Part shown: positions 40,418-55,793 of the stretch, piece by piece
Numbering within the stretch: the stretch's first letter is position 1
Layout of the letters: each line of letters opens with the position of its first letter
Source of the DNA: Akkermansia muciniphila
GTDB taxonomy: Bacteria; Verrucomicrobiota; Verrucomicrobiia; Verrucomicrobiales; Akkermansiaceae
Direction: 5' to 3'
Assembly: GCA_945888515.1 (NCBI GenBank)
Contig: CAMDAD010000002.1
Location: 124,001 to 188,000 of the forward strand
DNA length: 64,000 nt
Program-made: the position numbers and the translations under genes
The notes under the pieces: model-generated
What the model saw: only the letters and a program-made list of their open reading frames with translations
The model's database searches: none
What the model was told of the DNA's origin: nothing

Positions 40418-40432
40418 GAGCGAGAGAGAATT

Positions 40433-40747: not shown

Positions 40748-40831
40748 GCGGAGAGACTACCTTGTTTTCACCAAAATGAAATTACAAAAAGCCCTTTGAC
40801 AACAAGCGGGGTAAAAACATGGTATTACGAC

Positions 40832-40993
40832 ATGAGTAAGACCATGGCAAAAATCGGCAATTTACAGGGCATGATTTTCGACAGCGCGCTGTTGCAGTTG
40901 GCGCGGATGAAGGTGGACGATAAGGTTCATGTTAGCGATCCAACCTGTCGCTCTTGGGGAACGATAGCATGTCAACGAACTCATTTGTTTTGA
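40832..40993 (+). pseudogene. Remnant of a MazE/AbrB-type antitoxin gene
   Basis: The frame starts MSKTMAKIGNLQGMIFDSALLQLARMKVDDKVHV, which fits the swapped-hairpin AbrB/MazE N-terminus (pattern T.IGNS.GI..P...L.....V.V). It then breaks into unrelated residues, and its end overlaps the convergent beta-helix glycosidase gene by 62 bases. No toxin gene follows. A TTGACA at 40796-40801 lies upstream. I read it as a truncated gene, though a very short orphan antitoxin is possible. Confidence 0.4.
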
Positions 40994-42518
40994 AAAAATC
41001 GGCGCGGCTGATCTGTTTACCGCCGAGAGTGAGATTGTCGAAAGCGATGTTACGAATGCGCGCGTTGGCTTGCCCCCACAGCAATTGAGGTTCGCCTAGA
41101 ACGCTGGGCGCGGCGATGGAAATGTTTTGAAAAACGATGCCTGACAAGTCACCGGCCTTTCGCTTTTCTGCCCGTTTCGAGTAGGGTTCTGGCATGTTCA
41201 TGCATAGGAAAAATTGCTGTAACGTCGGGCGCGGGTCCTCGATGTTGATGTTGCGAAAGATCACTCCGTTTCCTGCTGCGCCTCCACCTTCACCACGCAT
41301 GTTAAACACCCGCCCGCCACTCCAGTGGTGCCATTTCGCCCTCGCATAAATGACGTCGCAGTCTTCCACGAGCAACTTCCGATCATTGAGATGCGGCAGG
41401 GAACTCAACACGAACGAGGATCCATTCGCATCATTCCACAACACGCAACGACGAATCCCCAGACCATTCACGTAGAGCGAATCATCCTGCGTGCGCAGAA
41501 AGCAATCCTCGATCCCCGTATTTCCAAAGGGATTGATGCCATCGCCATTGACGCGCCACGTGAAAATCTTCGTCCAGCGGACTTCATTCGGATGACCTTC
41601 TTTGTAGGGACTCACCAACATCAGCGAGTGCGTTGCGGAATCGGCGATGGTGATTCCTTCCACTCGGGTGTCGGTGGTGCCGATCACTTCGATGGGGCGA
41701 TACAAGCCGTGGTCTTTTTCTGAGATGGGTGGTGTCACGTATCTCGGATGTTTCAACCGCGCGCCCGACAAAGTGCCATGACCAAAAATGCGAATGTGAT
41801 GACCGTCCGCCCATTTTTTGTTAGAGAGAGTGCCATACACCATCGCATCGCCAGGAATGTAGTAATTGCGGTGCGCGCGCAGGGGAAAGGCCAAGCCTAG
41901 ATCGTGAATGCCGGGCAGAAAATAGAGCGTGTGCCATGAGCCATCGGATGGGGGAGTCTCGCCGGGTTTCACGGTGAACACACCCGGATCACCGGGCTTG
42001 GGTTTGTTTTCTAGCGGCGGATTGGCAAAGAGTGAAATCGTATGTAATGGCGACCCTCGATACCCCTTACCCGTATCTTGTGAGTCCATCTGACCATCGA
42101 TATCGACGGCTACAAGACAGGCTTGATCGAGTCTTACAATCGCCTTGCCGTTCACAATGGTGCAGGCCGATGCCTTGCGCCGTGGATGCACCGCAGCCGT
42201 GCGAATCGGCTGGCCATTCACTCGGTCAATTTCAATTTCCACGCCGCCCGTGGTCTCGAAATTCACATACGTATGCGTCCAGCCCGCCAAGTGATCGAAA
42301 TAGCCATCCGTATTTTTCTCGATCACCTTGCAGCTTGTTTGAAAAGCGAAGGCACTCTGCCACTCACTGCCCGCAGTCATGGCCCGCACCCGAACCTTGT
42401 AATGTGCCGATGCATCCAGACCTGGCACGGAGGGATAGACAAACACTCCTTCCGCACGGCAGAGGATAGGCGTGAGCAACAGAGTGATGAAGAGCTTAGC
42501 GATGCGTTTCATGTGCAT
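40932..42518 (-). CDS. Secreted right-handed beta-helix glycosidase (GH28/GH49-like)
   Basis: The 528-residue product has a signal peptide (about 1-22), an N-terminal beta-sandwich domain with an HTYVNFETTGG segment, then a right-handed parallel beta-helix from about 170. The helix includes GDAMVYGTLSNKKWADGHHIRIFGHGTLSG (typical of GH49-like dextranases and GH28) and RVNGDGINPFGNTGIEDCFLRTQDDSLYV. The two Asp-rich stretches GDGIN and QDDSLYV correspond to the GH28/GH49 catalytic aspartates. It is likely an endo- or exo-glycosidase for an acidic or branched polysaccharide. Which one cannot be said. Its neighbours are a GH78-like enzyme, an esterase and sulfatases. Confidence 0.82.
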   Translation of the reverse strand: MHMKRIAKLFITLLLTPILCRAEGVFVYPSVPGLDASAHYKVRVRAMTAGSEWQSAFAFQTSCKVIEKNTDGYFDHLAGWTHTYVNFETTGGVEIEIDRVNGQPIRTAAVHPRRKASACTIVNGKAIVRLDQACLVAVDIDGQMDSQDTGKGYRGSPLHTISLFANPPLENKPKPGDPGVFTVKPGETPPSDGSWHTLYFLPGIHDLGLAFPLRAHRNYYIPGDAMVYGTLSNKKWADGHHIRIFGHGTLSGARLKHPRYVTPPISEKDHGLYRPIEVIGTTDTRVEGITIADSATHSLMLVSPYKEGHPNEVRWTKIFTWRVNGDGINPFGNTGIEDCFLRTQDDSLYVNGLGIRRCVLWNDANGSSFVLSSLPHLNDRKLLVEDCDVIYARAKWHHWSGGRVFNMRGEGGGAAGNGVIFRNINIEDPRPTLQQFFLCMNMPEPYSKRAEKRKAGDLSGIVFQNISIAAPSVLGEPQLLWGQANARIRNIAFDNLTLGGKQISRADFFKTNEFVDMLSFPKSDRLDR

Positions 42519-42590
42519 GGGTTTTGATGCTTAGGGTTCGCTTCCAGCATGTGATGCGTCAGCAAGGTAAGACCACCGGGCGTAGTCTGT

Positions 42591-42773
42591 CTATCCTTCC
42601 TCATCTTTACTCATGACCCATTCTTGAGCAGAGGCCGATTCAGGGACAATGGCATGCCGTGCGGTCAGTTCTCGATATCGATGTTCGGATGATGGTCGAA
42701 TGCTCAACCAGCTGGATGCCACCGCAAGCAGTCCGAGGATCATAAAAATAGATCGAATCGGGAAATACTTCAT
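42591..42773 (-). CDS. Small hypothetical membrane protein
   Basis: A 60-residue frame starts at the ATG at 42773 (MKYFPIRSIFMILGLLAVASSWLSIRP...) and has one clear N-terminal membrane helix (about 8-25) followed by a polar tail ending SKDEEG. It lies in the gap between the DUF6288 gene (stop 42803) and the beta-helix gene on the same strand. A longer frame from 43079 is only an overlap with DUF6288. No homolog family is known to me. Confidence 0.45.
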   Translation of the reverse strand: MKYFPIRSIFMILGLLAVASSWLSIRPSSEHRYRELTARHAIVPESASAQEWVMSKDEEG

Positions 42774-42802
42774 CTCACAACAGGGAGACCTCGCCATTCT
42801 TT

Positions 42803-45271
42803 CTACTGCTTGATAGTCCGCAATTCCGGTTGGGTGGTGGCGGATTCGATGGCTTTGATGGTGTCCTCGATGGCACCGACTCTGACAAGATTCAACGAAC
42901 CGGGAAATTCCCCGCGTTCGGTATCGCGGTTGAAACTTGCGATGACTTTTTGCAGTGCGGGGATTTGGGTTTTGGCAGCGGTGCCGTAGCTGGCAATGAT
43001 TTTCATAATCTCGCCGGTGCGACTCTCGCTGCCGTGGCCGCCTTGAGTTTCGGCAAGGGCGGCGGCGGCAGGGAGGCATTCTTTGAAGTGGTATTTCGCC
43101 AGAGCCTTCAATCCTGCCATACGAATTTCGTTATTGAACATGGTGTCCGCTGGGCTGGGCTTTTCAACGGCGGTAATGATCGCGGGCGCGAGAGCGATGA
43201 CATCGGCTTCGCTGAGTTGGTTTTCGAAGAAATCCCGCAACGTCGCGCGGGCCATGCCATCGGGATTGGTCGATACCGAGCGGATGGCGGCGTAGCGCAG
43301 CTTGGCATCCATCTTGTTCACTTCTTCTTTGAGTGGACCGCTGAAGACGGCTGCGGCGAGTTGACCGTGGGCGAACTGTACGGGATCTTCCCAACGGATG
43401 GGCCACAGCGGCTCGGCGGTGGAGACCAGAGCCTTGAGAATATCTTCGAGCGCAGGCTTGGCGGTGCCGCCCATGGTGCGAATAGCTTCGGCGGCTTTGT
43501 AACGCACCCATCGGTCCGTGTGGGATAGCCGTTTCACCAATACCGGCAAAGCCTCTGGCGAGTTGAGGCGACCTAATGTTTCGCAAGCTCCTTGGATCTG
43601 TTGTGGGTCGCTGCCTTCGGCGAGTTTGATTAGCTCAGCGATCATGGTTTTCCCCTCGGGTCGATTTGCTAATTCCTCCGCTGCCCAAGTGCGGACGATG
43701 GGCGACCAGTCATCGAATGCTTTCACCAATTCTTGCGTAGTGATTTTTTTCCGATCCAGATCGAAGCGTCCTGAAGCGATCACGGCGGCAGCTTGATCTT
43801 TGGTGAGCCAGGCGTCAGGAGCGGCATCGCGTCCGGTAATGACCAGCTTGCGCAAGGGTAGGGCATAGGTGATGACATACGTGGCTGCGGGGCTGAGACC
43901 GTTATAGCTACTATTTCCGTAGTAGGTATTATCATCGGTTTTCCCGGGGCTGTATTGCTCTCCTCCGTCATAGGTGAATGAGCCATCAGAGCGACGCACC
44001 AGATCGAAATGCCACGATGCCTTGCGGAAAAATGCGGCAGCTGCTTCCGGTCCGCCGACGGCCGCACCGAGGGCGCTCCATAGGTAGCTGAAGCCCTGAC
44101 CAGTGTGGCCGTATTCCCGGTTTGCGTAGCCTGCTGTGGCCATGCGGGCGAAAAAGTTCGCCTCTTTCGGTCGGTTGCCGATGGCGCTAAACATGACAGC
44201 GGTAATGGAGTTTTTGCCGTTGTTTTCATGATACGGCCATGGCTCGTGCTCGCCGTAAGGAATGGAACCCTTGCCGGCAAAGTAGCTGAAAAAACCTGCG
44301 GCTCGCGTGATGGCAAGATCGACTTCCGGGCTTTTCACGCCGCATTTTTTCCCGAGTACGATAGAGAGATTCGCGGGTAATCCAGCCATATTCACGGGGC
44401 CATATGGTGGCACCGAGCCATTGAATTTTCCTTCCTTGGTGAGCGCGGCAAAGCCGTGACCGAAGGTGCCATACATGCTTTGGCCACGGGCTAACAGGAG
44501 AGTGCTCTTGGTGATCGCGGGCATGACTTCGTTGTCTTTAGTGATGAGGAAATACTCGCAGAGAAACAGATTGCGGTAGCCCATGGTCCAGGCATCGCCC
44601 CAGACGAATCCTTCCGGTTTTTTGTTGGGATCGACTTCGATCGCGGCAAGTTTGCGCGCGAACTCACGCAACTTTGGCAGATACTCGGGATGGCCGGTGG
44701 CGAGCAGGGCGAGCCCTTGTATGGGACCGCACCAATCGGTTTTCAGCTCCTCTTTTTCAAGAACCTTTCTGGCTTCTTCGAAGATGCGAGTCGATTTAGC
44801 GCAGTTCCAAGGCGCGGTGTCACTGTAGGTGCCCATGACCTTGAGTTTGATCGCAAGCTCCTGCACTTGCCCGCTGCGCGAAACTGTTAGATTAAGAACG
44901 CCACTCTTCGCTTCCGTCTCCGCTTGCTGAATGGCCATGGCGAAGGTTTTGCGAGCGTCATCGTGGAAAAGCCTGCCGTTCGTGCCGAGGATCACATCAT
45001 CCACTTTCAGCACACCATCCGCCGGAGAGCCGGTGCCGACATGGGTGACTAAAATTTGACGACTGGCCAAAGTGGTGCGGCCTTGCGCGGCATCGAGATT
45101 GTCCGCCGCCTTGGTGTAGATCCATCCGCGCAATCCGGTGGCGCCGAGGTTGTAGGTGAGCTCGCGATCGATGGACTGGATGTCCTTGGTGAGATCCGGC
45201 GCTTGCGCAAGAAGCGAGTTGGCGATGCCGAGAACCATCAGCAGGGAACTTTTTGGGAAAAATGATTTCAT
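42803..45271 (-). CDS. Secreted DUF6288-type protein with PDZ and HEAT-like repeats
   Basis: The 822-residue product has a signal peptide (about 1-22), then a PDZ-like domain (about 60-155, VLKVDDVILGTNGRLFHDDARKTFAMAIQQAE), a large central domain (about 160-500) of helical toroid appearance with many Gly-rich loops (FGHGFAALTKEG, YGEHEPWPYHENNGKNS), and C-terminal HEAT-type repeats (about 520-740: QGACETLGRLNSPEALPVLVKRLSHTDRWVRYKAAEAI). DUF6288 proteins of this layout are common next to sulfatases in Verrucomicrobia and Planctomycetes and are of unknown activity. It lies between the beta-helix glycosidase and the SASA esterase, so a part in polysaccharide use is plausible. Confidence 0.7.
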   Translation of the reverse strand: MKSFFPKSSLLMVLGIANSLLAQAPDLTKDIQSIDRELTYNLGATGLRGWIYTKAADNLDAAQGRTTLASRQILVTHVGTGSPADGVLKVDDVILGTNGRLFHDDARKTFAMAIQQAETEAKSGVLNLTVSRSGQVQELAIKLKVMGTYSDTAPWNCAKSTRIFEEARKVLEKEELKTDWCGPIQGLALLATGHPEYLPKLREFARKLAAIEVDPNKKPEGFVWGDAWTMGYRNLFLCEYFLITKDNEVMPAITKSTLLLARGQSMYGTFGHGFAALTKEGKFNGSVPPYGPVNMAGLPANLSIVLGKKCGVKSPEVDLAITRAAGFFSYFAGKGSIPYGEHEPWPYHENNGKNSITAVMFSAIGNRPKEANFFARMATAGYANREYGHTGQGFSYLWSALGAAVGGPEAAAAFFRKASWHFDLVRRSDGSFTYDGGEQYSPGKTDDNTYYGNSSYNGLSPAATYVITYALPLRKLVITGRDAAPDAWLTKDQAAAVIASGRFDLDRKKITTQELVKAFDDWSPIVRTWAAEELANRPEGKTMIAELIKLAEGSDPQQIQGACETLGRLNSPEALPVLVKRLSHTDRWVRYKAAEAIRTMGGTAKPALEDILKALVSTAEPLWPIRWEDPVQFAHGQLAAAVFSGPLKEEVNKMDAKLRYAAIRSVSTNPDGMARATLRDFFENQLSEADVIALAPAIITAVEKPSPADTMFNNEIRMAGLKALAKYHFKECLPAAAALAETQGGHGSESRTGEIMKIIASYGTAAKTQIPALQKVIASFNRDTERGEFPGSLNLVRVGAIEDTIKAIESATTQPELRTIKQ

Positions 45272-45281
45272 AGCGGATATT

Positions 45282-46199
45282 CTAACGGAAAGAGAGTGAT
45301 TTCAAGAGATTCTTCATGCCCTCACCCGCGGCATCACCGATGAGAAAGTAGCTTTCGGCGTTGGCGAACCAATGATGTCCATGTGTGGGGCAGGGCGAAA
45401 GTTCCGCAGGTCGCGCGAAGTCCGTCGTCTTGATAAACACCGCGTTCTTGATTTTCTTGGTTCCTTTTTCCTGCGCCTGGCGGAAGTCAAACAGATCGCC
45501 GTTCTCCACAGGACCGCCATTGCCCAGCTCGCCGACCACTACAGGCAAGTTCGGTGCCGTGAATTCCTTGCGAAGGTCTTTCACCAAATTGACGAGGTTC
45601 TCAGCGTATTCCGCGATCGCCGGTTTCTCGCACATATCGTTCCAGCCCTGCTGCCAGTAGAATCCCGCTAACTCGTATTTCTCCTCACCCAGTGCCGCCA
45701 AGGCCGCGCGCACTTCCTCCACCATTTTTGTGTAGTATGGACCCACCTGGCCACCGGAACTGGGCGGCCGGAAATCGACAAACAAACTCTTGCCGCCCCA
45801 GGCTGTTTTAATCAGCAACACGGGCTCTTGAAAATAGTCGCCCATCACCAAGCCGAAGCCCAGCTCAGGCCCGATGTGACTGCTATCACCGTATCCCGTG
45901 AAGCCCACGGTCAGTCCGCCTTTGCGAACCATATCATCTACCTTGAAGGAAATCTGCACATCGTCCCGCACCACCCACTCGCCTTTCGCGTTCTTGAGGG
46001 GTTTCATTTTTAGTGCGCTCTTCGAATGCTGCATCGACCACACCAAATTGCCTTTGCCACCATTGTAATCTCTATCCCCATCCATGGAAACCACCCCCTG
46101 TCCCTCCATGTTTGATTGTCCAGCGAGGATAAAAACCTTGATCGGTCTCGCGTTTAAGGTGGAGAGGGCCAAAGTGAATAGCAGTGCGATGGATTTCAT
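45282..46199 (-). CDS. Secreted SASA-family carbohydrate O-acetylesterase
   Basis: The 305-residue product has a signal peptide (about 1-17) and the SGNH-type esterase block KVFILAGQSNMEGQG (Ser nucleophile in GQSNM). Later come GPELGFG and a catalytic end GHHWFANAESYFLIG with the His near the C-terminus. This is the sialate O-acetylesterase/acetylxylan esterase group, which removes acetyl groups from glycans outside the cytoplasm. The ATG at 46199 precedes the signal peptide; upstream codons add a non-signal stretch. Together with sulfatases it would deacetylate a decorated polysaccharide. Confidence 0.87.
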   Translation of the reverse strand: MKSIALLFTLALSTLNARPIKVFILAGQSNMEGQGVVSMDGDRDYNGGKGNLVWSMQHSKSALKMKPLKNAKGEWVVRDDVQISFKVDDMVRKGGLTVGFTGYGDSSHIGPELGFGLVMGDYFQEPVLLIKTAWGGKSLFVDFRPPSSGGQVGPYYTKMVEEVRAALAALGEEKYELAGFYWQQGWNDMCEKPAIAEYAENLVNLVKDLRKEFTAPNLPVVVGELGNGGPVENGDLFDFRQAQEKGTKKIKNAVFIKTTDFARPAELSPCPTHGHHWFANAESYFLIGDAAGEGMKNLLKSLSFR

Positions 46200-46351
46200 A
46201 AGAGGATGAGAAAATGAGTGATTGAGCCTATATTTACCTAAGATGCGCGTGCTTTGTTTCATCGCTTCTTATCATGAGAGGTAGCAGAAGGATGGTGACG
46301 ACTAGGCAAGTGGGATGACTCAGGCATCTGCCACGGGATGGTTGCCGTTTT

Positions 46352-47734
46352 TCATGGACCCCAGACGCGCGGGGCTTTGTAGTTGGCGGGCTCATCTTCG
46401 GCTTTGGGCGGAAGGGCGGCAGCTCGATAGGGTTCAAGCCGCACGCGGAGTAGCCGAACTTTTTCAGGATTTTTCTCGGCGAGGTTGTTTTTTTCGTACG
46501 GGTCTTCGGCGAGATGAAACAGCTCGATGTTCTCCGCAGCGGCATTTTTCACATTGGCTTTTTTGAGTTCGTTGGCGGTGATTTTTCCGTTGATGATCAA
46601 TTTCCAATCTCCCACACGGATCGCGGCGCTGTTAGGCATGGCGTTGATGAGGATCTCCTCATGTGGTGATGGTTTCCCGGCCGCGATCACGGGCCAGACG
46701 TCGCGACCATCGAGAGGATGCTTTTGCTGGAGTGATCCGCCAGCGAGCTTCAACAAGGTCGGGTATAAGTCTACGATGTGAAGTGGTTCATTGATGATGG
46801 TGCCTGGTTTGATTTGTCCCGGCCAGTTCGCCAGGGCGGAGACGCGGGTGCCGCCTTCGTAAAGCGTACCTTTCTGCGCACGGAGCTTGCCGTTAGATCC
46901 TCCGCCCACACCTAACAAGCCGCCATTGTCGCTGGAGAAAAAAATCAGGGTGTTGCTGCTCAGTTTTCTGGCTTCTAGTGCGGCGACGACTCGTCCGACT
47001 TGCTCATCGAGACAGGTGATCATCGCGGCATACATCCGGCGCTCCTTTTGCGCGATGTGCGCGTAGCGTTTCACGTATTCGGCGGGTGCTTGCAAAGGCG
47101 TGTGGGGGGCGTTGAATGGCAAGTAGAGGAAAAAGGGTTTTTTCCCTTGCGTCTGCTCGATCACACGCACGGCTTCATCGCCGAGCAAGGTCGTGGCGTA
47201 GCCTTTGTCTTGACACTCCTGATCGTTGCGATGCCAATCGAGACCACCATCACGCGACAGTGTGAAAAAATCGATGGCACCATTGTAGTGGCCGTACTGA
47301 GTGTCGAATCCGCGTTGGGTGGGCAGGTAAGGCGAAGCAAAGTGCCCGAGGTGCCACTTGCCAACGATATGCGTGGAGTAGCCCGCTTCCTTGAGAGCCT
47401 GCGGCAGGGTTCGTTCATCGAGAGGCAGTCCGTATTGAGCCCATGGTCTTACCACGCCGACTTGTAAGCCATGGCGGATCGGATAGCGGCCCGTCATCAA
47501 TGCGGCGCGAGTGGGCGTGCACACGGGTAACACGTAAAACTGCTCCAGCTTGGCTCCACGATCCGCGAGTTTGTCGAGATGAGGTGTTTTGATCTCGCTG
47601 CCATGCCAGCCGACATCCGCCCAGCCGAGGTCATCAGCGATGATGACGATGACGTTCGGACGCTCCGCGCTTGCTTTGGATGAACTGAAGCAAACGATGG
47701 AAAATAATGATAGGATCAGAGAGGTGATTTTCAC
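46352..47734 (-). CDS. Secreted sulfatase (formylglycine type)
   Basis: The 460-residue product has a signal peptide (about 1-23), the metal site NVIVIIADDLGWAD near 27-40 and the formylglycine motif CTPTRAALMTGRY with Cys72 as the residue modified by FGE. Other family marks are GKWHLGHF, the metal segment FFSSDNGG, and the C-terminal substructure. The C-X-P-S/T-R type is the classical aerobic or anaerobic sulfatase maturation site, but no maturase gene is in the window. It is the first of two sulfatases in tandem, separated from the second by 3 bases, so they are co-transcribed. It cleaves sulfate esters of a carbohydrate. Confidence 0.92.
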   Translation of the reverse strand: MKITSLILSLFSIVCFSSSKASAERPNVIVIIADDLGWADVGWHGSEIKTPHLDKLADRGAKLEQFYVLPVCTPTRAALMTGRYPIRHGLQVGVVRPWAQYGLPLDERTLPQALKEAGYSTHIVGKWHLGHFASPYLPTQRGFDTQYGHYNGAIDFFTLSRDGGLDWHRNDQECQDKGYATTLLGDEAVRVIEQTQGKKPFFLYLPFNAPHTPLQAPAEYVKRYAHIAQKERRMYAAMITCLDEQVGRVVAALEARKLSSNTLIFFSSDNGGLLGVGGGSNGKLRAQKGTLYEGGTRVSALANWPGQIKPGTIINEPLHIVDLYPTLLKLAGGSLQQKHPLDGRDVWPVIAAGKPSPHEEILINAMPNSAAIRVGDWKLIINGKITANELKKANVKNAAAENIELFHLAEDPYEKNNLAEKNPEKVRLLRVRLEPYRAAALPPKAEDEPANYKAPRVWGP

Positions 47735-47737
47735 TTG

Positions 47738-49123
47738 TTAGAAGTTGGCTTTACTTGGTGGCGGAGGTTTTTTAGTAGTGCTTTTCCGTGGCATTCGTTC
47801 CAGTGCTTTCATTTCGGTAGTCTGCCCGTCGTCTCCTTGTTGCTTCATCCATGCATCGAGTTTTGTGCGAAGCTCGGCGAGTTTGTCGGCTAGTCTCGGC
47901 TCATGAGTAAGGTTTTGCCGATTCCAAGGATCGGCCTCGCAGTCGTAAAGCTCCTCGGCCGGGCGGTGTTGGTACTCGTGTGTGAGGCGCTGGGCATGAG
48001 CATCGCCCGCTGCAGCCATCTTTTGCCAGGCCTTGAACGTGGAGTCTTTCGTCGCGGCGTTTTGAAAAGTGGCATTCGGAGTGAGGTTTCGAATGTAGCG
48101 GAAGCGGGTGTCGCGCACGCTGCGGATGCCGTAATGATCGGATCCACCGTGGATGCCGCGAGTGGTCTGCAGACCATAGACAAAGTCTTTGTGGCTGGTG
48201 GCTGCGCCTGTAAGCACAGAAACAAAGCTGCGGCCATCGAGAATCTCTGGTCGATTCAGACCTGCCATTTCGAGCAAGGTGGGCACGACGTCGATGTATT
48301 CAATGAGTGCCTCGCTGGTCGATGACGGCTTGGTTTTTCCCGGCCAGCGCGTGATGCATCCGCTTTGTAGCCCAGCATCATAGCAGGTCCATTTGGCAAA
48401 GGGGAAGCTGTTGCCTTGCTCGCTCAGAACGATGACGAAGGTGTGATCGCGCTGCGGCGATTGCTCGAGTTGTTGCAGGAGCTCTCCGACTTGCGAATCG
48501 AAATACGTGATCTCCGCCAGATACTGGGAAAAAGCACGGCGCGTTTCGGTTGTATCCACGACCACAGGGGGCAGTTTGAGAGTAGCGGGTGGGTATGCCG
48601 AGGCATCACCTTTGTCCCATGGTGCGTGAGGCTCGTCTGATGCTGCGATAAAGAGAAATGGCCTGCCACTTTTGGTACTTGCTTGCAGGACTTTGCCAAA
48701 AGACTGCGGATTCATGCCTCCCTGGTCTAGGTATTCAAAAGGGAAAACCGATCGGGGACTAATATGGGTTTTTCCCGAAATGTGTGTCGTATAATTGGCT
48801 TGATGCAGGTAGTGTGCGATACTTTTGACCCAGTCATAGGCCATGGTGTGGTTGGGGTAAGCACCGGATTTGACAGGGTAGAGTCCGGTGTAGAGGCTGT
48901 GCCTAGTAGGTGAGCACATCGGAGCCGCTTGAAAACAGCTGTTGAATTTCATGCCCTCAGACGCGAGTTTTTCGAGATGCGGGGTTTTCGCTTGGCCACC
49001 ATAGACGCCGAGGTCGCGATAGGTGCAGTCATCAGCGATAACGAGCAAAATGTTAGGCTGTGCGGCAAGTGCGGAGCCGCAGGCGATCACGGAGAGGAGG
49101 CTATAGGCGATAGATCGTAACAT
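47738..49123 (-). CDS. Secreted sulfatase (heparan N-sulfatase-like)
   Basis: The product (about 461 residues) has a signal peptide and the metal site ILLVIADDCTYRDLGVYGG. The formylglycine motif is CSPTRHSLYTGLYP, with the modified Cys at about residue 70. The pattern of the motif (CSPTRHSLYTG) and the early DCTYRD resemble the N-sulfoglucosamine sulfohydrolase-type subgroup, but the substrate cannot be told from motifs. The last 15 residues are rich in Lys and Pro. The ATG at 49123 is preferred; a GTG two codons upstream (49129) is possible. It is divergent from the BMC operon across a 183-base gap. Confidence 0.9.
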   Translation of the reverse strand: MLRSIAYSLLSVIACGSALAAQPNILLVIADDCTYRDLGVYGGQAKTPHLEKLASEGMKFNSCFQAAPMCSPTRHSLYTGLYPVKSGAYPNHTMAYDWVKSIAHYLHQANYTTHISGKTHISPRSVFPFEYLDQGGMNPQSFGKVLQASTKSGRPFLFIAASDEPHAPWDKGDASAYPPATLKLPPVVVDTTETRRAFSQYLAEITYFDSQVGELLQQLEQSPQRDHTFVIVLSEQGNSFPFAKWTCYDAGLQSGCITRWPGKTKPSSTSEALIEYIDVVPTLLEMAGLNRPEILDGRSFVSVLTGAATSHKDFVYGLQTTRGIHGGSDHYGIRSVRDTRFRYIRNLTPNATFQNAATKDSTFKAWQKMAAAGDAHAQRLTHEYQHRPAEELYDCEADPWNRQNLTHEPRLADKLAELRTKLDAWMKQQGDDGQTTEMKALERMPRKSTTKKPPPPSKANF

Positions 49124-49152
49124 GCTCACGATTTATTAACAGATGCGTGTGA

Positions 49153-49312: not shown

Positions 49313-49987
49313 ATGTCCTCTTCCACCCAATCTAAGATTTCTCGAGACTTGATCGAACAGCTCGTACGCGAGCAGGTGTATGCCGCGATGAAGCAGCCGG
49401 CACCGCGTCAGGCTCCGAATCAGTTGTTAGTGAATATCAGTGCGCGTCATTGTCATTTGACGCAAGAAGCCGTTGAGGCGCTCTTTGGTCCGGGCTATCA
49501 GTTGAAGCCGATGAAGGATCTGTATCAGCACGGTCAATACGCTGCGAAAGAAACAGTGACTCTCATCGGCCCTCGCAGCCGTGTGATTTCCAATCTCCGC
49601 ATTCTCGGACCTTGTCGTAATTTGAATCAGGTCGAGCTCGCTTACACGGATTCCATCGCACTGGGCTTCGATATCCCCGTGAAAATGTCAGGCGACATCG
49701 CGGGCACACCCGGCGGCATGCTGATGGGGCCACACGGTTATTTTGAAATGAAAGAGGGCATCATCCGCGCTCAACCGCACGTGCACATGCACCCGGATGA
49801 CGCGGCGTTTTACGGTGTGAAGCATCTCGATACCATGAAGCTGAAAGTTCACGGTCCTCTCGCGATGACTTTCGATCAACTCATCGTACGTGTCGACCCC
49901 ACATTCAAGCTGGAGGTGCACATTGATACCGATGAAGGCAATGCCTGCGGTCTCAAGCCCGATACTTTTTGCGAACTAACCAAGTAA
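49313..49987 (+). CDS. pduL: BMC phosphotransacylase PduL
   Basis: PduL moves an acyl group from CoA to phosphate, regenerating CoA inside the shell; in PV-type BMCs lactyl- or acyl-CoA is the likely substrate. The 224-residue product has two metal-binding histidine blocks: VNISARHCHLTQEAVEALFG (RHCHL for the family's RHVHL) and PHVHMHPDDA. The N-terminus (about 8-27, KISRDLIEQLVREQVYAAMK) is an amphipathic helix, separated by a Pro-rich linker from the core, and matches an encapsulation peptide. The ATG at 49313 is used, with a TTG four codons earlier (49301). It is the first gene of the operon. Confidence 0.93.
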   Translation: MSSSTQSKISRDLIEQLVREQVYAAMKQPAPRQAPNQLLVNISARHCHLTQEAVEALFGPGYQLKPMKDLYQHGQYAAKETVTLIGPRSRVISNLRILGPCRNLNQVELAYTDSIALGFDIPVKMSGDIAGTPGGMLMGPHGYFEMKEGIIRAQPHVHMHPDDAAFYGVKHLDTMKLKVHGPLAMTFDQLIVRVDPTFKLEVHIDTDEGNACGLKPDTFCELTK

Positions 49988-50029
49988 TTTTTTCTCACAA
50001 TCAACCACATCGAACCACAAACAACCATT

Positions 50030-50302
50030 ATGAGTGCAGCACTCGGATTCATCGAAACCAAAGGATATGTCGGCAGCGTAGAGGCTACCGATGCCATGAC
50101 GAAAGCGGCCAATGTCGAACTCGTTAAACAAATTCAAACTGGTGGTGGCTTTCTCACCGTCATCGTCAAAGGCGATGTCGGCAGCGTGAAGTCCGCCGTA
50201 GCCGCAGGTGCGGATGCCGCAGGTCGCGTAGGCGAACTGGTGGGCTCGCACGTGATCGCTCGCCCGCACAACGACCTTCTGGTGCAACTCGGCATCGCTT
50301 AA
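50030..50302 (+). CDS. BMC-H shell protein, first of three
   Basis: This 90-residue protein is a hexamer-forming shell protein of the Pfam BMC domain. It begins ALGFIETKGYVGSVEATDAMTKAANV, runs through VIVKGDVGSVKSAVAAGADAAGRVG and ends with HVIARPHNDLLVQL, all consistent with a standard single BMC domain. The pore loop here reads IQTGGGF, different from the other two copies. It follows pduL by 42 bases and precedes the second copy by 28 bases. Together with the pentamer genes it forms the polyhedral shell. Confidence 0.96.
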   Translation: MSAALGFIETKGYVGSVEATDAMTKAANVELVKQIQTGGGFLTVIVKGDVGSVKSAVAAGADAAGRVGELVGSHVIARPHNDLLVQLGIA

Positions 50303-50330
50303 TTTCCAACCACTCTAACAAACTACCAAT

Positions 50331-50609
50331 ATGGCCAAACAAGCAATCGGAATTATTGAAACCAAAGGCTTCATCGCTTTGATCGAAGGAGCTGACGCCG
50401 CCTTGAAATCCGCTGACATCCAAATGACCGGCTGGGACAAAATCGGCTCGGGTCTGGTGACTGGGTTTTTCACTGGCAACGTCGCCGCTGTCAAAGCAGG
50501 TCTCGATGCCGCCGCTGCTGCTGCTGCCAATGTCGGCACAGTGACTTCGGTGCAGGTGATCGCCCGTCCACACGACGACCTCAGTAAGCTGGGAAGTTGG
50601 ATCGGATAA
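50331..50609 (+). CDS. BMC-H shell protein, second of three
   Basis: The 92-residue protein has one BMC domain: AIGIIETKGFIALIEGADAALKSADI, then the pore-side strand with the standard loop DKIGSGLV, TGNVAAVKAGLDAAAAAAANVG and RPHDDLSKLGSWIG. It has an alanine-rich helix where the others have more varied residues. The pore motif KIGSG is the canonical one, in contrast to the first and third copies. The acetokinase gene follows after 85 bases. Confidence 0.96.
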   Translation: MAKQAIGIIETKGFIALIEGADAALKSADIQMTGWDKIGSGLVTGFFTGNVAAVKAGLDAAAAAAANVGTVTSVQVIARPHDDLSKLGSWIG

Positions 50610-50694
50610 TTTTATCTGTTATCAGTTATTTATTATTGGTTATGAGTCAAATCAAAAACTAGTAACCACAATAACCATGAACTAACAACCTGCC

Positions 50695-51879
50695 ATGCTC
50701 ATCCTCATCGCCAACCTCGGTTCCACTTCTTTCAAATACCGTCTCTATCGAATGGAGTCTACGGGACAGGAAGTCTTGGCGAAAGGTGGTTATGAGCGCG
50801 TGACGGATTATGCGTCTGTGATCGAGGATGCTCTTGTCACCTTGACCAAGGATGGCGTGATCGCCTCCGCGGATGAGATCGATGCGGTCGGTTTCAAAAC
50901 CGTGCTCGGCAAGGATCTCAGCGGCTGTGTGCTGGCGGATGATGCCTGCGTGAAAGCGCTGGAGGACTTCGCCGCAGTGGCCCCCGCTCACAATCCGCCG
51001 TATGCGAATGGCATCCGCCAGTTCGCCCAATCGCTGCCAAAAGCACGACTCGTCGCATTGTTCGAGACCGCGTTTTACCAATGGGTGCCGGAAGCTCGCA
51101 GCACGTATGCGTTGCCACAATCCTGGCGCGATGCGGGTATCAAGCGTTATGGCTTTCACGGCGCAAGTCACAAATTTGTCGCCGAGCGATCCGCTGAGTT
51201 GTTAGATCGCGAGGATGTTGCTGCCGGCACGGCCGCACTCTATCAGCAGGGCCCCGCCGCGATCACGGGCAAACCTCTTCGCGTTGTTTCCTGCCACCTC
51301 GGTGGCAGCAGTTCGGTCACGGGTATTCTCAACGGCGTCGCCATCGGCACCAGTATGGGATTTTCGCCGCAAAGCGGACTTCCGCAGAACAATCGCGTTG
51401 GTGACCTCGACTCAGGTGCGCTTCCCTACGCGATGAAAACGCTGGGTCTCACGCTCGAAGAAGCGGAGCGCCAACTCACGAAAGACTCGGGCTTGCTCGG
51501 TCTATCGGGTGTCAGCAATGACATCCGCGATATTAACGAAGCCAGTCAAGCAGGCCATGCGAATGCGACTCTCGCGATCGATCACCTCATCGATTCTATT
51601 CGTCACTGGGTCGGTGCTTTTGCCTGGCAAATGGGCGGGCTCGATGCCTTGGTCTTCACCGCAGGCATTGGCGAAAATGGCAAGGAACTTCGTGCCGCGG
51701 TTTGTGACGGGCTTGAAGAGTTCGGCTTGATTCTCGATGAAGAACGCAATGCGGCCTGCCGCGCGATCGAGGCAGAGTTGCAGGCGGATCACTCACGCGT
51801 CAAAGTCTTCGTTATTCCCGCAAACGAAGAACTCGTGCTCGCTCGCGAAGTCTATCGCAAAATTTCTTCTCTCTCGTAA
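50695..51879 (+). CDS. Acetate/propionate kinase-family acyl kinase with altered active-site motifs
   Basis: This 394-residue protein is an acetokinase: it starts LILIANLGSTSFKYRLY, has RYGFHGASHKFV and the nucleotide region HLGGSSSVTGI, and ends with NEELVLAREVYRKI. It would turn acyl phosphate from PduL into acid plus ATP. Several active-site motifs are changed: the family's GHRVVHGG reads GFKTVLGK (losing its Arg and His), and FDTAFH reads FETAFY, so the catalytic Asp is Glu. The following NRVGDLDSGALP keeps its Arg. Lactyl phosphate is a plausible substrate. The gene sits between two BMC-H genes. Confidence 0.85.
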   Translation: MLILIANLGSTSFKYRLYRMESTGQEVLAKGGYERVTDYASVIEDALVTLTKDGVIASADEIDAVGFKTVLGKDLSGCVLADDACVKALEDFAAVAPAHNPPYANGIRQFAQSLPKARLVALFETAFYQWVPEARSTYALPQSWRDAGIKRYGFHGASHKFVAERSAELLDREDVAAGTAALYQQGPAAITGKPLRVVSCHLGGSSSVTGILNGVAIGTSMGFSPQSGLPQNNRVGDLDSGALPYAMKTLGLTLEEAERQLTKDSGLLGLSGVSNDIRDINEASQAGHANATLAIDHLIDSIRHWVGAFAWQMGGLDALVFTAGIGENGKELRAAVCDGLEEFGLILDEERNAACRAIEAELQADHSRVKVFVIPANEELVLAREVYRKISSLS

Positions 51880-51925
51880 ATAAACTTTTTCTCAAACCAT
51901 CATCAACAACTAACGAAACACACAT

Positions 51926-52228
51926 ATGGCTAAACAAGCAGTAGGACTATTGGAAACACGCGGGCTCGCCTGCCTCGTCGTCGGCGTTGACGCGATGCTG
52001 AAATCCGCAAACATCGAACTCGCCGGTCCGATGAAACAAGTCGGCAGCGCTCTCTGCAACGCTGTCATCACGGGCGACGTCGCTGCAGTCAAAGCCGCGA
52101 TCGATACCGGAGCCGCGGCTGCCAGCAGCTGTGGTGAAGTGGTGAGCGCTCATGTCATCGCCCGTCCTGACGACGCGATTGACGGCGTTCTTCCGAAAGA
52201 CGCCGCCGCCCGCGCTCCTCGCAAGTAA
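51926..52228 (+). CDS. BMC-H shell protein, third of three, with C-terminal extension
   Basis: The 100-residue protein has one BMC domain (AVGLLETRGLACLVVGVDAMLKSANIEL, then TGDVAAVKAAIDTGAAAASSCG and HVIARPDDAI) but its pore-side loop reads KQVGSALCN, unlike the standard KIGSG, and it carries Cys residues (positions 15 and 44 and in the SSCG helix) not seen in the other copies. A tail of about 15 residues, basic at the end (DGVLPKDAAARAPRK), extends past the domain. It begins 47 bases after the acetokinase gene. The unusual pore may set a different permeability. Confidence 0.95.
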   Translation: MAKQAVGLLETRGLACLVVGVDAMLKSANIELAGPMKQVGSALCNAVITGDVAAVKAAIDTGAAAASSCGEVVSAHVIARPDDAIDGVLPKDAAARAPRK

Positions 52229-52238
52229 CCGGTGAAGC

Positions 52239-52268
52239 CGCGCTCGCTGCGATGTCGTAGCGAGCGTG
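52239..52268 (+). promoter_or_regulatory. Intercistronic stem-loop between BMC-H and BMC-P genes
   Basis: CGCTCGCT (52241-52248) and AGCGAGCG (52259-52266) pair perfectly over 8 base pairs with a 10-base loop and can extend by a few bases. There is no T-run after it, so it is more likely an RNA-stability or processing element than a terminator. It separates the hexamer and pentamer cistrons. Confidence 0.55.
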
Positions 52269-52290
52269 CTTTCCCTAACGAAAAATTCGT

Positions 52291-52599
52291 ATGTTTCTTG
52301 CAGAAGTCATCGGCCAGGTCGTGGCAACGAAAAAAGACGAGCATCTCACGGGCCGCAAGCTCCTGATTCTCCGTCCCAAACTCGTTGACGAAAAGGACAA
52401 TAAACAATTCAAGAACGGTCAGAATACGGTCGTAGCAATCGACACCGTTGGTGCCGGGGTAGGGGAGTTGGTATTGTTCTGTCAGGGCAGCAGCGCCCGT
52501 CAAGCCGGCGACCTCAAGCCCGTCCCTGTCGATGCCGCCGTCGTCGCCATCGTTGACCGCGTGGAGGTGCTGGGGACTACGGTATATAAAAATCAATGA
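52291..52599 (+). CDS. BMC-P shell protein, EutN/CcmL type, first of three
   Basis: The 102-residue protein is a pentamer-forming vertex protein of the EutN/CcmL family. It begins MFLAEVIGQVVATKKDEHLTGRKLLILRP and has AIDTVGAGVGELVLFCQGSSARQ, the conserved GAG..E.V....G(S)S.R strand-loop, and ends VPVDAAVVAIVDRVE. It caps the corners of the shell. It is the first gene after the hairpin, 62 bases after the third BMC-H gene. Confidence 0.95.
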   Translation: MFLAEVIGQVVATKKDEHLTGRKLLILRPKLVDEKDNKQFKNGQNTVVAIDTVGAGVGELVLFCQGSSARQAGDLKPVPVDAAVVAIVDRVEVLGTTVYKNQ

Positions 52600-52620
52600 T
52601 CAGACCGATGCGTCTGATCA
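52597..52620 (+). promoter_or_regulatory. Intercistronic stem-loop after the first BMC-P gene
   Basis: TGATCAGAC (52597-52605) and GTCTGATCA (52612-52620) pair over 9 base pairs with a 6-base loop, and the stem starts at the stop codon of the BMC-P gene. A smaller hairpin (GTCA/TGAC) follows. Neither has a T-run, so read-through into the dehydrogenase gene is expected. Confidence 0.55.
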
Positions 52621-52655
52621 GTCAAATCTGACGGATCACTCAAAACAAACTTCTC

Positions 52656-54116
52656 ATGACTCTCGATCAAAAACAAATCCAGTCCGTGGTGGAAAGCGTG
52701 CTTTCGCGCTTGCAGGCGGCGAATGTCACTGCGGCACCTGCCGTGAAAAAAGATGGTTGCGGCTGTGGCTGCCCCGGTGTCGATGGCGACTATGGTGTTT
52801 TCACATGCGTGGACAAAGCCGCTGATGCCGCTCATCACGCTCACCTGAAATTGAAAAAAGCTGGCATCGGCGCGCGGGCCAAGGTGATCGAAATCGTCAA
52901 AACGCTCGCTGTGGCGAATGCCGAGCCATGGGGCAAGTTTGAGATGGAAGAGACCAAGATCGGTCGCGTCGATCACAAGATAGGCAAGTTGCTGATCACG
53001 AAAAATGTTCCGGGTGTCGAATACCTGCGCCCCGATGCAATGAGCGGTGATGGCGGCATCATGATGGAAGAGTTTGCCCCCTTCGGAGTCATCGGTGCCA
53101 TCCTTCCCGTCACGCACTCGGTGCCGACACTCACGGGTAATGTCATCAGCATGGTTGCCGCGGGCAATGCGATTGTTTTCAATCCGCATCCTGGTGGTGC
53201 TCGCAGTGCTGCGATGGCCGTGCGAGAGTACAACAAAGCGATTGAACGCGAACTGGGTATCTCGAATCTCATCACCTGCATTGAGCAGCCGACGCTTGAG
53301 TCGTTCAATCTCATCTGCAAAAACGAACAGATTCCCTTGCTTGCCATCACCGGCGGTCCTGCCGTCGTGAGTGCGGCGATGAAATCTGGTAAGCGCTCCA
53401 TTTGCGCGGGACCAGGCAATCCTACGGTTGTCGTCGATGACTCCGCCGATCTCGCCAGAGCCGCGCGCAGCATCATCGAGGGCGGTGGCTTTGACAACAA
53501 TCTCTTATGCATCGGCGAAAAAGCCGTGTTTGTTGTCGGTTCGGTGTTCAATCGCTTTATGGAGGAATTGGAAAAAGCCGGAGCCGCGCGACTCAATGCA
53601 GCGCAAATCGACTCCCTAACGAAAGCTGCCTTCACCTACAAAGAAACCGATGGCGGCTGCTCACATGCAGCGGTGAATCGCGATCTGATCGGTGCCGATC
53701 CCGCCGTACTCGCCCGTCATGCCGGTGCGAGTGTTTCTAGCAGTGCGCCGATTTTGTTTGGCGAAACTAACGCTGATCACCCCTTTGTGCAAGAAGAGCA
53801 AATGATGCCGATGATCCCCATCGTCGCTTGCCCCGATTTCGCCACGGCTGTGAAACACGCCAAACAAGCCGAGCACAACTACCGCCACTCCGCAATGATC
53901 CATACCCGCAACGTCGACAACATGACGGCGATGGCGAAAGAAATGGACACTACGATTTTTGTGAAAAACGGTCCCAGCACCGCCGGTCTCGGTCTCGGTG
54001 GCGAGGGCTACCTGTCCTACTCCATCGCTACTACCACGGGCGAAGGCATCACCACTCCGAAAACCTTCACCCGCGTCCGCCGCTGCGTGCTCGTGGACAA
54101 CCTTCACATCATCTAA
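52656..54116 (+). CDS. CoA-acylating aldehyde dehydrogenase of the BMC
   Basis: The 486-residue enzyme is of the PduP/EutE type and would oxidise lactaldehyde to lactyl-CoA with NAD+ and CoA. It has an N-terminal encapsulation peptide (about 4-21, [18 protein letters not shown]), then a linker with the unusual run CGCGC (35-39), and the dehydrogenase core: the nucleotide-binding [14 protein letters not shown], and the catalytic Cys285 in [12 protein letters not shown]. The C-terminal end ([21 protein letters not shown]) is typical of BMC dehydrogenases. In PV-type BMCs the natural aldehyde is lactaldehyde from fucose or rhamnose. Confidence 0.92.
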
Positions 54117-54130
54117 CAACTGCACCGTTC

Positions 54131-54406
54131 ATGCTCGTCTGTCGTATCGTAGGCAATGCCGTTGCCACCCACTGCCACCGCTCGCTCAGCGGGAAAAAGC
54201 TGTTGCTCTGCCAGCAGCTCGGCGATGAGGATACGATGATCGGCGCGCCGTTCGTTGCGATTGATCTCTTCGGTGCCGGTCTGCACGAGCGGGTGCTCGT
54301 GAGCACAGACGGCCTCGGTGCCCGTCACCTCGTCGATGACGATTCCTCGCCGATCCGCATGTTTGTGCAAGGCATCATTGATGAGAAACAACAAGCAGCG
54401 ATATGA
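54131..54406 (+). CDS. BMC-P shell protein, second of three
   Basis: The 91-residue protein (MLVCRIVGNAVATHCHRSLSGKKLLLCQQLG...) has the EutN/CcmL fold: FVAIDLFGAGLHERVLVSTDGLGARHLV and an end PIRMFVQGIIDE. It is Cys/His-richer than the other pentamer proteins (VATHCHRS). The ATG at 54131 is used, 15 bases after the dehydrogenase stop. Its stop overlaps the third pentamer gene as ATGA. Confidence 0.93.
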   Translation: MLVCRIVGNAVATHCHRSLSGKKLLLCQQLGDEDTMIGAPFVAIDLFGAGLHERVLVSTDGLGARHLVDDDSSPIRMFVQGIIDEKQQAAI

Positions 54407-54711
54407 GAATCGGACAAGTCATCGGCAAAACCGTCATGAGCGTGCAAGATGCCGCGCTCAAGGGCGGGCGCTGGCTGATTGTTAGCCCACTGGATGCCTC
54501 GCAGTTTTCCGAAGCTTGTGCGAAAAAACAAAAGATCTCCTCTCAGTCCTCGCTGATCGTTTACGATAACCTCGGTGCCGGAGAAGGCGATATCATCGGC
54601 TTCAGCGAGGGAGCTGAGGCCACCGCGCCTTTTCCTGAACCGATCCCCATCGATGCCCTGTGCATCGCGATTTTCGACTCCATCGACTACACACCCTATC
54701 TCGCAGTCTAA
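54403..54711 (+). CDS. BMC-P shell protein, third of three
   Basis: The 102-residue protein (MRIGQVIGKTVMSVQDAALKGGRWLIVSP...) is the third vertex protein. It has the conserved LIVYDNLGAGEGDIIGFSEGAEAT segment and ends IPIDALCIAIFDSIDY. It starts within the ATGA overlap of the second BMC-P gene. Three BMC-P genes match the number reported for the PV-type BMC, where different vertex proteins may occupy different sites. Confidence 0.93.
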   Translation: MRIGQVIGKTVMSVQDAALKGGRWLIVSPLDASQFSEACAKKQKISSQSSLIVYDNLGAGEGDIIGFSEGAEATAPFPEPIPIDALCIAIFDSIDYTPYLAV

Positions 54712-54734
54712 TCATTTTACCCTAACAACATTTT

Positions 54735-55793
54735 ATGAAAAAAGTCATCACCGCCGCCGACGCCGAAGCCATGATCCGCAGTGGCAATATCACCATTCCT
54801 GCCGGAGCCGTTGTCACGCCCGCCGCGAAAGATGTGTTTGGCAGCGCCAACAAATCGTATGGTGTGAGTGCCGCCGCGCCGAAAAAAGTGGAGCCGATTC
54901 TGCCCGACTACGAATACCACTGGACACCGGGCAAGGACCCGAAAACACCCGCCGAGATCGATGCCTTTTTCCATTCTCCCGCCATCACCAAACTCAAAGA
55001 GCGCATGGTCGAGATCGGCCAACGCATGTGGGCTCGTGAATACACCGATGGCAACGGCGGTAACCTGACGATCCGCGTGGGGGATAACCTCGTGCTCTGC
55101 ACCCCGACTCTCGTCTCGAAAGGCTTCATGACAGTCGAGCAAATGGGCCTTGTCGATCTGGAAGGCAATCAGCTCGCCGGAACATTCAAGCGCACCTCCG
55201 AGTGCATGACGCACCTCGCGATCATGAAGCGCCAGCCCAAAGCGAAAGCCTGCTGCCACGCCCACCCACCACACGGGACTGCCTTCGCCGTCGCAGGTGT
55301 GCAGCCACCGACCTGCATGATTCCTGAGGCCGAAGTGTTCCTTGGTCAAATCGGCATGGCGGAATACCGCACGCCCGGTACTCCCGCGAATGCGGAAGTC
55401 GTGGGCAATGCCGCCGTCGATCACATGGCCGTGCTAATGGTCAATCACGGCGTCATCACCTGGGGCAAAGACATTGAGGATGCTTACTGGAAAATGGAGA
55501 ACGTCGAGTCGTATTGCAAGACCGTCTGGGTTGCCTCGCAACTCAACGGCGGCAATCTGCTCACCATCACCGGTGGCCAAGCGAAAGAACTCATTGCCCT
55601 GCGCAAGATGCTCGGCATGGACGACAAGCGCGCCAACTGGAAAGAGTGCGAACTCTGCGACAACGCCGAGTTCCGCCCCGGCACCGTCTGCAACATCGGA
55701 GGCCCGGCAGCATCGTCAGGCACCGCCAGCAATGCCGACGCCGAAGCCCTGGTCAAAGCCATTACCGACCAAATCATGGCGGGCTTGAAGTAA
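54735..55793 (+). CDS. BMC class II aldolase for fuculose/rhamnulose phosphate
   Basis: The 352-residue protein would cleave L-fuculose- or L-rhamnulose-1-phosphate to DHAP and lactaldehyde. The class II (AraD/FucA) core has the catalytic-acid segment TSECMTHLAI (Glu156), the zinc His pair CHAHPPHG (175, 177) and the third His in LMVNHGV (238). An N-terminal segment of about 35 residues (ITAADAEAMIRSGN...IPAGAVVTPAAKDVFG) resembles the start of EutQ-type proteins. The C-terminus (about 334-352, ADAEALVKAITDQIMAGLK) is an amphipathic encapsulation helix after a Ser/Gly linker. Cys305, Cys308 and Cys319 form a Cys cluster before it. It ends the operon. Confidence 0.9.
   Translation: MKKVITAADAEAMIRSGNITIPAGAVVTPAAKDVFGSANKSYGVSAAAPKKVEPILPDYEYHWTPGKDPKTPAEIDAFFHSPAITKLKERMVEIGQRMWAREYTDGNGGNLTIRVGDNLVLCTPTLVSKGFMTVEQMGLVDLEGNQLAGTFKRTSECMTHLAIMKRQPKAKACCHAHPPHGTAFAVAGVQPPTCMIPEAEVFLGQIGMAEYRTPGTPANAEVVGNAAVDHMAVLMVNHGVITWGKDIEDAYWKMENVESYCKTVWVASQLNGGNLLTITGGQAKELIALRKMLGMDDKRANWKECELCDNAEFRPGTVCNIGGPAASSGTASNADAEALVKAITDQIMAGLK

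Follow-up and report, generated by a model that had tools for sequence, protein, structure and literature searches.

Which acyl phosphate is handled by the acetokinase of a bacterial microcompartment locus in Akkermansia muciniphila? The window (the whole 64,000-nucleotide stretch of DNA analysed here) contains an intact gene of this family, encoding a protein of 394 aa that we named AckL. The first-pass annotation proposed that this protein had lost two canonical active-site motifs and that its substrate had changed, for example to lactyl phosphate. We found that the residues in question have been replaced, in the same manner, in every member read of one clade. On balance, with a probability of roughly 0.55, we favor a role of AckL as a lactyl-phosphate:ADP phosphotransferase, which would catalyze the ATP-making end step of the PVM microcompartment with a site rebuilt for it. 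The lactyl-phosphate route is already published; the residue signature is what is added here. No statement of this signature was found in the open-access literature searched, which covers few subscription papers and not the original PVM paper, so we make no claim of priority.

The microcompartment locus and its genome

The locus (49316-55793, all genes on the + strand) has the gene content reported for PVM loci (PMC4207490), with class II aldolase, aldehyde dehydrogenase, PduL, acetokinase, BMC-H, and BMC-P genes occurring together (Table 1). The PVM acetate kinase listed in that source is the same gene in the same locus type under a generic name, and the accessible part of the source does not mention the altered residues described below. 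Among 80 loci of named genomes, the nearest related loci were those of Akkermansiaceae. Aldehyde dehydrogenases of the PRK15398 type, such as the one encoded here, are presumably CoA-acylating. PVM loci are also expected to include a DeoR regulator and a lactate/malate dehydrogenase. No DeoR family member was detected among the 19 window proteins scanned, and a promoter and terminator scan returned 2 promoter-like and 11 terminator-like sites (3.3 and 7.5 expected, respectively). A lactate/malate dehydrogenase gene (61067-62056) lies about 5 kb downstream of the locus, with other genes in between; among the 53 loci L032-L084, a match exceeded 400 bits in L036, L037, and L060, and reached 160 bits in L053.

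Upstream of the locus, the - strand of the window (38687-49129) encodes an alpha-L-rhamnosidase, a DUF6288 protein, a SASA esterase, and two sulfatases. This gene set suggests a sulfated deoxysugar polysaccharide as the source; relatives of the organism have been described as bloom-time consumers of sulfated fucose- and rhamnose-containing algal polysaccharides (PMC8857213).

The genome that carries the window on its contig 2 (3.36 Mb, 97.5% complete) contains a PTA_PTB-family gene and a LUD-domain gene whose layout resembles that of LutB (judged by eye), as lactate oxidation would need. Neither a second acetokinase nor a match to the RhaA and fucose-isomerase C-terminal Pfam families was found in this genome.

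Table 1. Coordinates of the features discussed (positions in the window unless a locus is named; residues after the equals sign follow the numbering of M. thermophila AckA)
Feature	Position	Strand	Remark
PduL phosphotransacylase	49316..49987	+	from downstream ATG; ORF list starts at TTG 49301
BMC-H shell protein	50030..50302	+	
BMC-H shell protein	50331..50609	+	
AckL, acetokinase family	50695..51879	+	
Codons of F67-K68 (= H90-R91)	50893..50898	+	
Codon of A98 (= L122, acyl pocket)	50986..50988	+	pocket role, PMC5517563
Codon of E124 (= D148, metal-site residue)	51064..51066	+	metal role, PMC3475010 (its Asp150)
Codons of G204-S205 (= N211-G212, PHOSPHATE2 loop)	51304..51309	+	loop role, PMC4390882
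Codons of residues 231-238, QNNRVGDL (LOOP3; N232 = G239, R234 = R241)	51385..51408	+	
BMC-H shell protein	51926..52228	+	
BMC-P (EutN/CcmL) shell protein	52291..52599	+	
Aldehyde dehydrogenase	52656..54116	+	NCBIfam PRK15398 above cut-off
BMC-P (EutN/CcmL) shell protein	54403..54711	+	
Class II aldolase, hallmark enzyme for PVM loci	54735..55793	+	PMC4207490
FdrA/AllF - AllG - K/E acetokinase - AllH operon	L256:3728-9536; L303:4270-9313; L302		

Residues replaced in AckL

AckL matched the acetokinase family PF00871 (E = 1.9e-93; 313.7 bits for a gathering score of 22) and passed the TIGR00016 cut-off (306.1 versus 293.4 bits), while remaining under that of NCBIfam PRK12397 (NF009063; 295.1 versus 659 bits), a model that we take to cover PduW. 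Its predicted structure (mean pLDDT of 89.5) has the acetokinase fold, and the top five PDB matches were acetate kinases and PduW (TM 0.83-0.86), with PduW (PDB 7fj7) ranking second at 39% identity. The only stretch with a pLDDT below 50 comprised residues 231-238, which form the rebuilt LOOP3. As judged from sequence and model, the protein begins at its first strand and has no extension resembling an encapsulation peptide at the N terminus.

All of the strings quoted in the first-pass annotation are present in the intact ORF: GFKTVLGK at residues 66-73, FETAFY at residues 123-128, and the kept family segments NLGSTSFKY (which holds N7), RYGFHGASH, and NRVGDLDSG. We aligned AckL to five PDB chains, with M. 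thermophila AckA (PDB 1tuu) as the numbering reference. GFK aligned with GHR of this enzyme (H90F, R91K) and FETA with FDTA (D148E), so the altered residues do not lie in unrelated regions. Misalignment was rejected as an explanation, as the motifs were column-correct against the five PDB chains and in mixed alignments. The letters thus differ as had been claimed, but the motifs are not lost: R to K and D to E are conservative replacements.

The remodeling also includes L122A, H152Y, N211G, G212S, L233Q, M238Q, G239N, and T240N, whereas N7, H123, H180, R241, D283, R285, G331, and E384 are unchanged, and AckL shares both length and fold with M. thermophila AckA (PDB 1g99/1tuy; TM 0.86 to 1g99). 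Of the residues expected in an acetate kinase (EC 2.7.2.1), AckL possesses N7, H180, R241, and E384, but has K instead of R91 and E instead of D148. The replacement of G331 of the ADENOSINE motif, which marks the PPi-dependent enzyme (PMC5517563), is absent from AckL. Hereafter, K/E designates kinases with K91 and E148, and R/D those with R91 and D148.

R91 and R241 appear to be placed to help bind acetyl phosphate (PMC11717252). In a spirochaete AckA, the R91A replacement lowered kcat to 0.06-0.08% and increased the Km for acetyl phosphate 12-fold; moreover, N7, R91, H180, R241, and E388 were strictly conserved among the structures compared in that study, PduW included (PMC11717252). Another source differs on R91, which it lists with nucleotide rather than acetate binding, and places Asp150 (equivalent to D148) among the metal ligands (PMC3475010). 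For R91K, no effect was reported in the accessible parts of the open-access literature searched.

The acyl pocket is formed by V93, L122, F179, and P232 (PMC5517563), of which only L122 is changed throughout the PVM kinases. Several of the changes lie on the nucleotide-phosphate side and not in this pocket: N211 and G239, located in PHOSPHATE2 and LOOP3, adjoin the nucleotide, and N211 both makes contact with the beta-phosphate and forms a hydrogen bond with G239 (PMC4390882). M. thermophila variants at N211 and G239 lost activity, and those at N211 shifted NTP choice least (PMC4390882). In effect, the K/E clade swaps two phosphate-loop letters (G211 and N239), and N239 may take over the role of N211.

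Fixation of the signature in PVM loci

Acetokinase places were collected from 285 Verrucomicrobiia genomes, from a phylum-wide set of 387 genomes, from 197 genomes belonging to another class, from 80 loci in named genomes, and from one PDU locus. The motif counts cover the fetched loci, which represent a part of all PF00871 matches in a sample without Planctomycetes, EUT, or GRM acetokinases; L001 (the window gene), L109 (the same as L222), and ORFs shorter than 250 aa or below 100 bits were left out.

The kinases of PVM loci (178 ORFs) yielded 168 distinct cores, all of which shared the H90F, R91K, and D148E changes of the window gene. F90, K91, H123, E148, H180, G211, S212, Q233, R241, G331, and E384 were each present in 168/168. 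Position 239 was N in 165 cores and S in 3, and position 122 was A in 159, S in 7, and V in 2. The other pocket residues were largely kept (V93 in 161/168, F179 in 165/168, and P232 in 159/168); D283 and R285 were kept in the 135 PVM kinases aligned, and N7 in the sets of 10 and 35 aligned sequences. In this earlier set of 135, PduL, aldehyde dehydrogenase, and aldolase were all found in the stretch for 110 kinases, with many of the others lying on short contigs.

A first set of acetokinases from outside PVM loci comprised 58 that were not beside PVM shell genes (their flanks were mostly ~0.5-1.5 kb, so that a microcompartment could lie farther off), five PduL-fused proteins, and one PduW; R91, D148, G212, and M238 were present in 64/64. 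Among the 58, position 211 was N (40), S (9), G (7), or another residue (2), and G211 alone is therefore not diagnostic; N239 was present in none, and Q233 was also found in PduW. Sixty-nine loci that were read separately (L192-L221 and L263-L301) added 32 distinct cores with no new K/E, all of them H90-R91-D148-N211-G212-M238-G239. Overall, the 267 distinct cores were divided into 171 K/E (168 from PVM loci and 3 from the AllFGH-linked sister clade described below) and 96 R/D, without a single K/D or R/E intermediate. All 96 distinct acetokinases from elsewhere, outside this sister clade, carried R91/D148, whereas positions 90, 91, 148, 211, 212, and 233 were invariant across the 171 K/E cores, and G331 was kept in 171/171.

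A PduL search of the 285 Verrucomicrobiia genomes gave a match in 98, and 93/285 contained a PduL of the PVM type (at least 256 bits). In G152, G195, G257, and G273, the only match was weak and lay in a long acetokinase-fusion-type frame, and in G153 it was a contig-end fragment. The kinase beside the PVM-type PduL was recovered in 91 of the 93 genomes, PduL being at a contig end in the other two (G045 and G212), and it was K/E in 91/91. Exactly one PF00871 match was present in 65 of these 91 genomes; among the remaining 26, several matches could be fragments of a single gene.

The PduW of a Klebsiella PDU locus (L262) resembles AckL in that its microcompartment locus also contains a PduL-family gene and an aldehyde dehydrogenase, and the PQSG string is common to both. 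Unlike AckL, it keeps GHR, FDTAFH, HLGNG, and MGTRSGD, and its acyl group is propionyl. We also observed single frames combining a cyclic-nucleotide-binding domain, an R/D acetokinase, and PduL according to Pfam (L007:862-3354, - strand; L010:1-3312, + strand; L257:4854-7193, - strand), and similar fused frames in L025 and L028, judged by frame length and PduL match. All five of these PduL-fused acetokinases keep R/D. Being in a microcompartment or being coupled to PduL is thus not enough by itself to bring K/E, and the idea that any microcompartment- or PduL-linked acetokinase changes in this way was rejected.

Two K/E acetokinases close to the verrucomicrobial PVM ones came from records titled Klebsiella pneumoniae (L182) and Akkermansia muciniphila (L113), which are probably mislabelled metagenome bins. 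No relative was confirmed in the viral contigs searched; the plasmid search matched 382 records, and among the best 40 of these 382, all were less than 60% identical (39% for the best).

Origin of the signature and selection

A tree of 101 representatives was obtained by a quick search, with SH-aLRT as the only branch support, after removal of columns 90, 91, 148, 211, 212, 239, and 240 (122 and 233 were kept). All 46 K/E rows fell on one branch (SH-aLRT 99), the 44 PVM rows formed one group (SH-aLRT 99), and the tree contained a single change between R/D and K/E. The 168/168 count therefore reflects one ancestral change that has long been conserved, and not 168 independent events. The signature was held over deep divergence, including in genomes outside the class of the window (family f68; L243-L247).

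In the three least saturated pairs, dN/dS was 0.072 (window and L047; dS 1.36), 0.109 (L115 and L118; dS 0.97), and 0.115 (L115 and L134; dS 1.12); other pairs had a dS of 1.5 or more or were saturated. Selection on the AckL clade is purifying. Together with the fixation of the signature in all 168 PVM cores, this led us to reject decay of a single gene, and with the core catalytic residues kept, AckL is probably a working kinase.

A sister clade beside AllFGH homologues

In the phylum search, one K/E kinase (L256) had no adjoining shell genes. The 197 genomes of its class contained two more relatives, L302 and L303 (90% and 68% identical, respectively), the next match being at 40%; the 27 next-best loci fetched from that class were all R/D. 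In these three loci, AllG and AllH homologues flank the K/E kinase, an FdrA/AllF homologue is found on the far side of AllG, and all of these genes have one orientation; the assignments were made by Pfam for L256 and by likeness to L256 for L302 (cut at both ends) and L303. The AllFGH-linked kinases, two of which were included in the tree, are sister to the PVM kinases and offer an independent handle on the meaning of the K/E signature.

The E. coli genes allFGH code for oxamic transcarbamylase, and allK, the fourth gene, codes for a carbamate kinase (PMC11326118). The sister clade thus resembles AllK in lying in an operon with FdrA/AllF, AllG, and AllH homologues, but AllK belongs to another protein family, and the K/E kinase separates AllG from AllH instead of following AllH. 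In the three AllFGH-linked genomes, two of which are less than 90% complete, arcC gave no match above cut-off (one weak match in G539) and allantoinase only matches below cut-off (best 217-233 versus 358 bits). G339 also contains an R/D acetokinase (L293), and G571 and G539 a second acetokinase match. The neighbours in L303 include an IlvD/EDD-like dehydratase, an SDR, a ROK-like regulator (by eye), and an MBL hydrolase, none of which was found in the stretches around L256.

The K/E site may suit acyl phosphates more polar than acetyl phosphate, such as lactyl, glycolyl, or carbamoyl phosphate. A broader proposal, which we consider distinctly unlikely, is that the clade constitutes a new 2-hydroxyacyl-phosphate kinase family with two genomic homes: the microcompartment, with aldehyde dehydrogenase and PduL, and an FdrA/AllG/AllH complex in which the K/E kinase would replace carbamate kinase. 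In this second home, the complex, related to oxamic transcarbamylase, would phosphorolyse a 2,4-dioxo sugar-acid derivative (an oxalurate isostere) into pyruvate and lactyl or glycolyl phosphate. If true, this would represent an unknown way of making ATP from sugar acids. Among the three loci, sugar-acid-type neighbours (the IlvD/EDD-like dehydratase and the SDR) were present only in L303; none was found around L256, and the L302 stretch is too short to tell.

Substrate of AckL

The pattern is best explained by a changed acyl-phosphate substrate, since the signature tracks the aldolase (lactaldehyde) microcompartment and is missing from the single PduW and the five PduL fusions examined. For AckL, lactyl phosphate is the most likely candidate. 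The aldolase would cleave fuculose- or rhamnulose-1-phosphate into DHAP and lactaldehyde, which the aldehyde dehydrogenase would convert to lactyl-CoA and PduL to lactyl phosphate; AckL, probably located outside the shell, would then transfer the phosphate to ADP, yielding lactate and ATP. What became fixed in the clade's ancestor is K91 for the Arg that helps position the acyl phosphate, E148 for the metal-site Asp, A/S122 for the bulky pocket Leu, and the exchanged phosphate-loop pair (N211 to G with G239 to N). We infer that a site rebuilt in this manner could fit the extra carbon and the hydroxyl of a 2-hydroxyacyl phosphate.

This agrees with published descriptions, in which the PVM organelle handles lactaldehyde (PMC4207490, PMC4784909), the presumed substrate of the pvm PduL is lactyl-CoA (PMC4784909), and the pathway drawn for Verrucomicrobia includes lactyl phosphate and L-lactate (PMC8857213). 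For fucose and rhamnose organelles, two scenarios, ending in lactate or propionate, have been put forward (PMC6620236). As PduW, which acts on propionyl phosphate, has the canonical letters, the contrast would favor the lactate scenario for the PVM K/E clade.

The annotation's proposal of a changed substrate therefore survives in part. It fits the pathway and the association with lactaldehyde microcompartments, but it started from residues that are replaced rather than lost, its lactyl-phosphate version was already in print (PMC8857213), and several changes face the nucleotide phosphates. Moreover, the sister clade lies outside PVM loci, and the genome studied here has a PTA_PTB gene but no acetokinase other than AckL and lacks a RhaA or fucose-isomerase match, while the tally of K/E cores rests on one origin. 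Most of these PduLs also lack the Gln77 to Tyr/Phe change, which has been published as a PduL marker of lactyl-CoA organelles (PMC4784909): position 77 is Q in 141 of the 162 PVM PduLs, including that of the window, and Y/F in 8, so that it was rejected as a supporting marker. In the open-access literature searched, we found neither an assay of any K/E member nor a characterised family of lactyl-phosphate (2-hydroxyacyl-phosphate) kinases.

AckL might instead be an ordinary, broad acetate/propionate kinase, in which the K/E set is neutral, co-adapted, and fixed once, and which would act on lactyl phosphate by promiscuity, if at all. The single change on the tree, the conservative nature of the exchanges, the mostly kept acyl pocket, and the TIGR00016 score all agree with this, and AckL could serve acetate too, as its genome has a PTA_PTB gene and no other acetokinase and most K/E-bearing genomes (the 65/91 mentioned above) have one PF00871 match. 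We nevertheless regard this explanation as somewhat unlikely, given the invariance of R91/D148 in 96 distinct acetokinases and of six positions in 171 K/E cores, the lack of intermediates among 267 cores, and the near loss of activity of R91A in a characterised AckA (PMC11717252). The strict conservation of K and E in every member read speaks against AckL being catalytically weak or inactive, with a structural or regulatory part in the locus. Two residues important in characterised enzymes are indeed replaced, but H123, H180, R241, and E384 are kept in 168/168 cores and N7 in both aligned sets, under purifying selection, which makes such a role highly improbable.

The phosphate loops raise another explanation, that of a changed phosphoryl acceptor or donor (Pi/PPi or another nucleotide, for example), for which N211G/G239N and S212 would have retuned these loops, rather than for the acyl group. 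N211 and G239 are beside the nucleotide (PMC4390882), and almost all K/E members have other residues there. The PPi-dependent acetate kinase of Entamoeba histolytica is an acetokinase that also has altered PHOSPHATE2 and LOOP3 letters (PMC4390882). The loss of G331 that marks this enzyme is, however, absent from AckL and from all K/E cores, D283 and R285 are kept in the 135 sequences aligned, and the published N211 and G239 variants were inactivated, with the least NTP shift at N211. A changed acceptor or donor thus appears quite improbable.

The acyl-phosphate step of PVM loci is listed as a generic acetate kinase, and the signature flags many genes that annotation would call acetate kinases but that may not encode such enzymes. 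The fixed signature makes the unproven lactyl-phosphate route directly testable, with one enzyme and several acyl phosphates, and bears on the two published scenarios for fucose and rhamnose organelles. K/E may also serve as a marker distinguishing lactaldehyde from propionaldehyde organelles, with one PDU control so far.

Finally, among the acetokinases collected, those of L029, L091, L095, and L097 exhibited an altered ADENOSINE motif (FTDRIGE, FTDAIGE, FSGGMSE), and some of them resemble putative PPi-type sequences discussed in PMC5517563.
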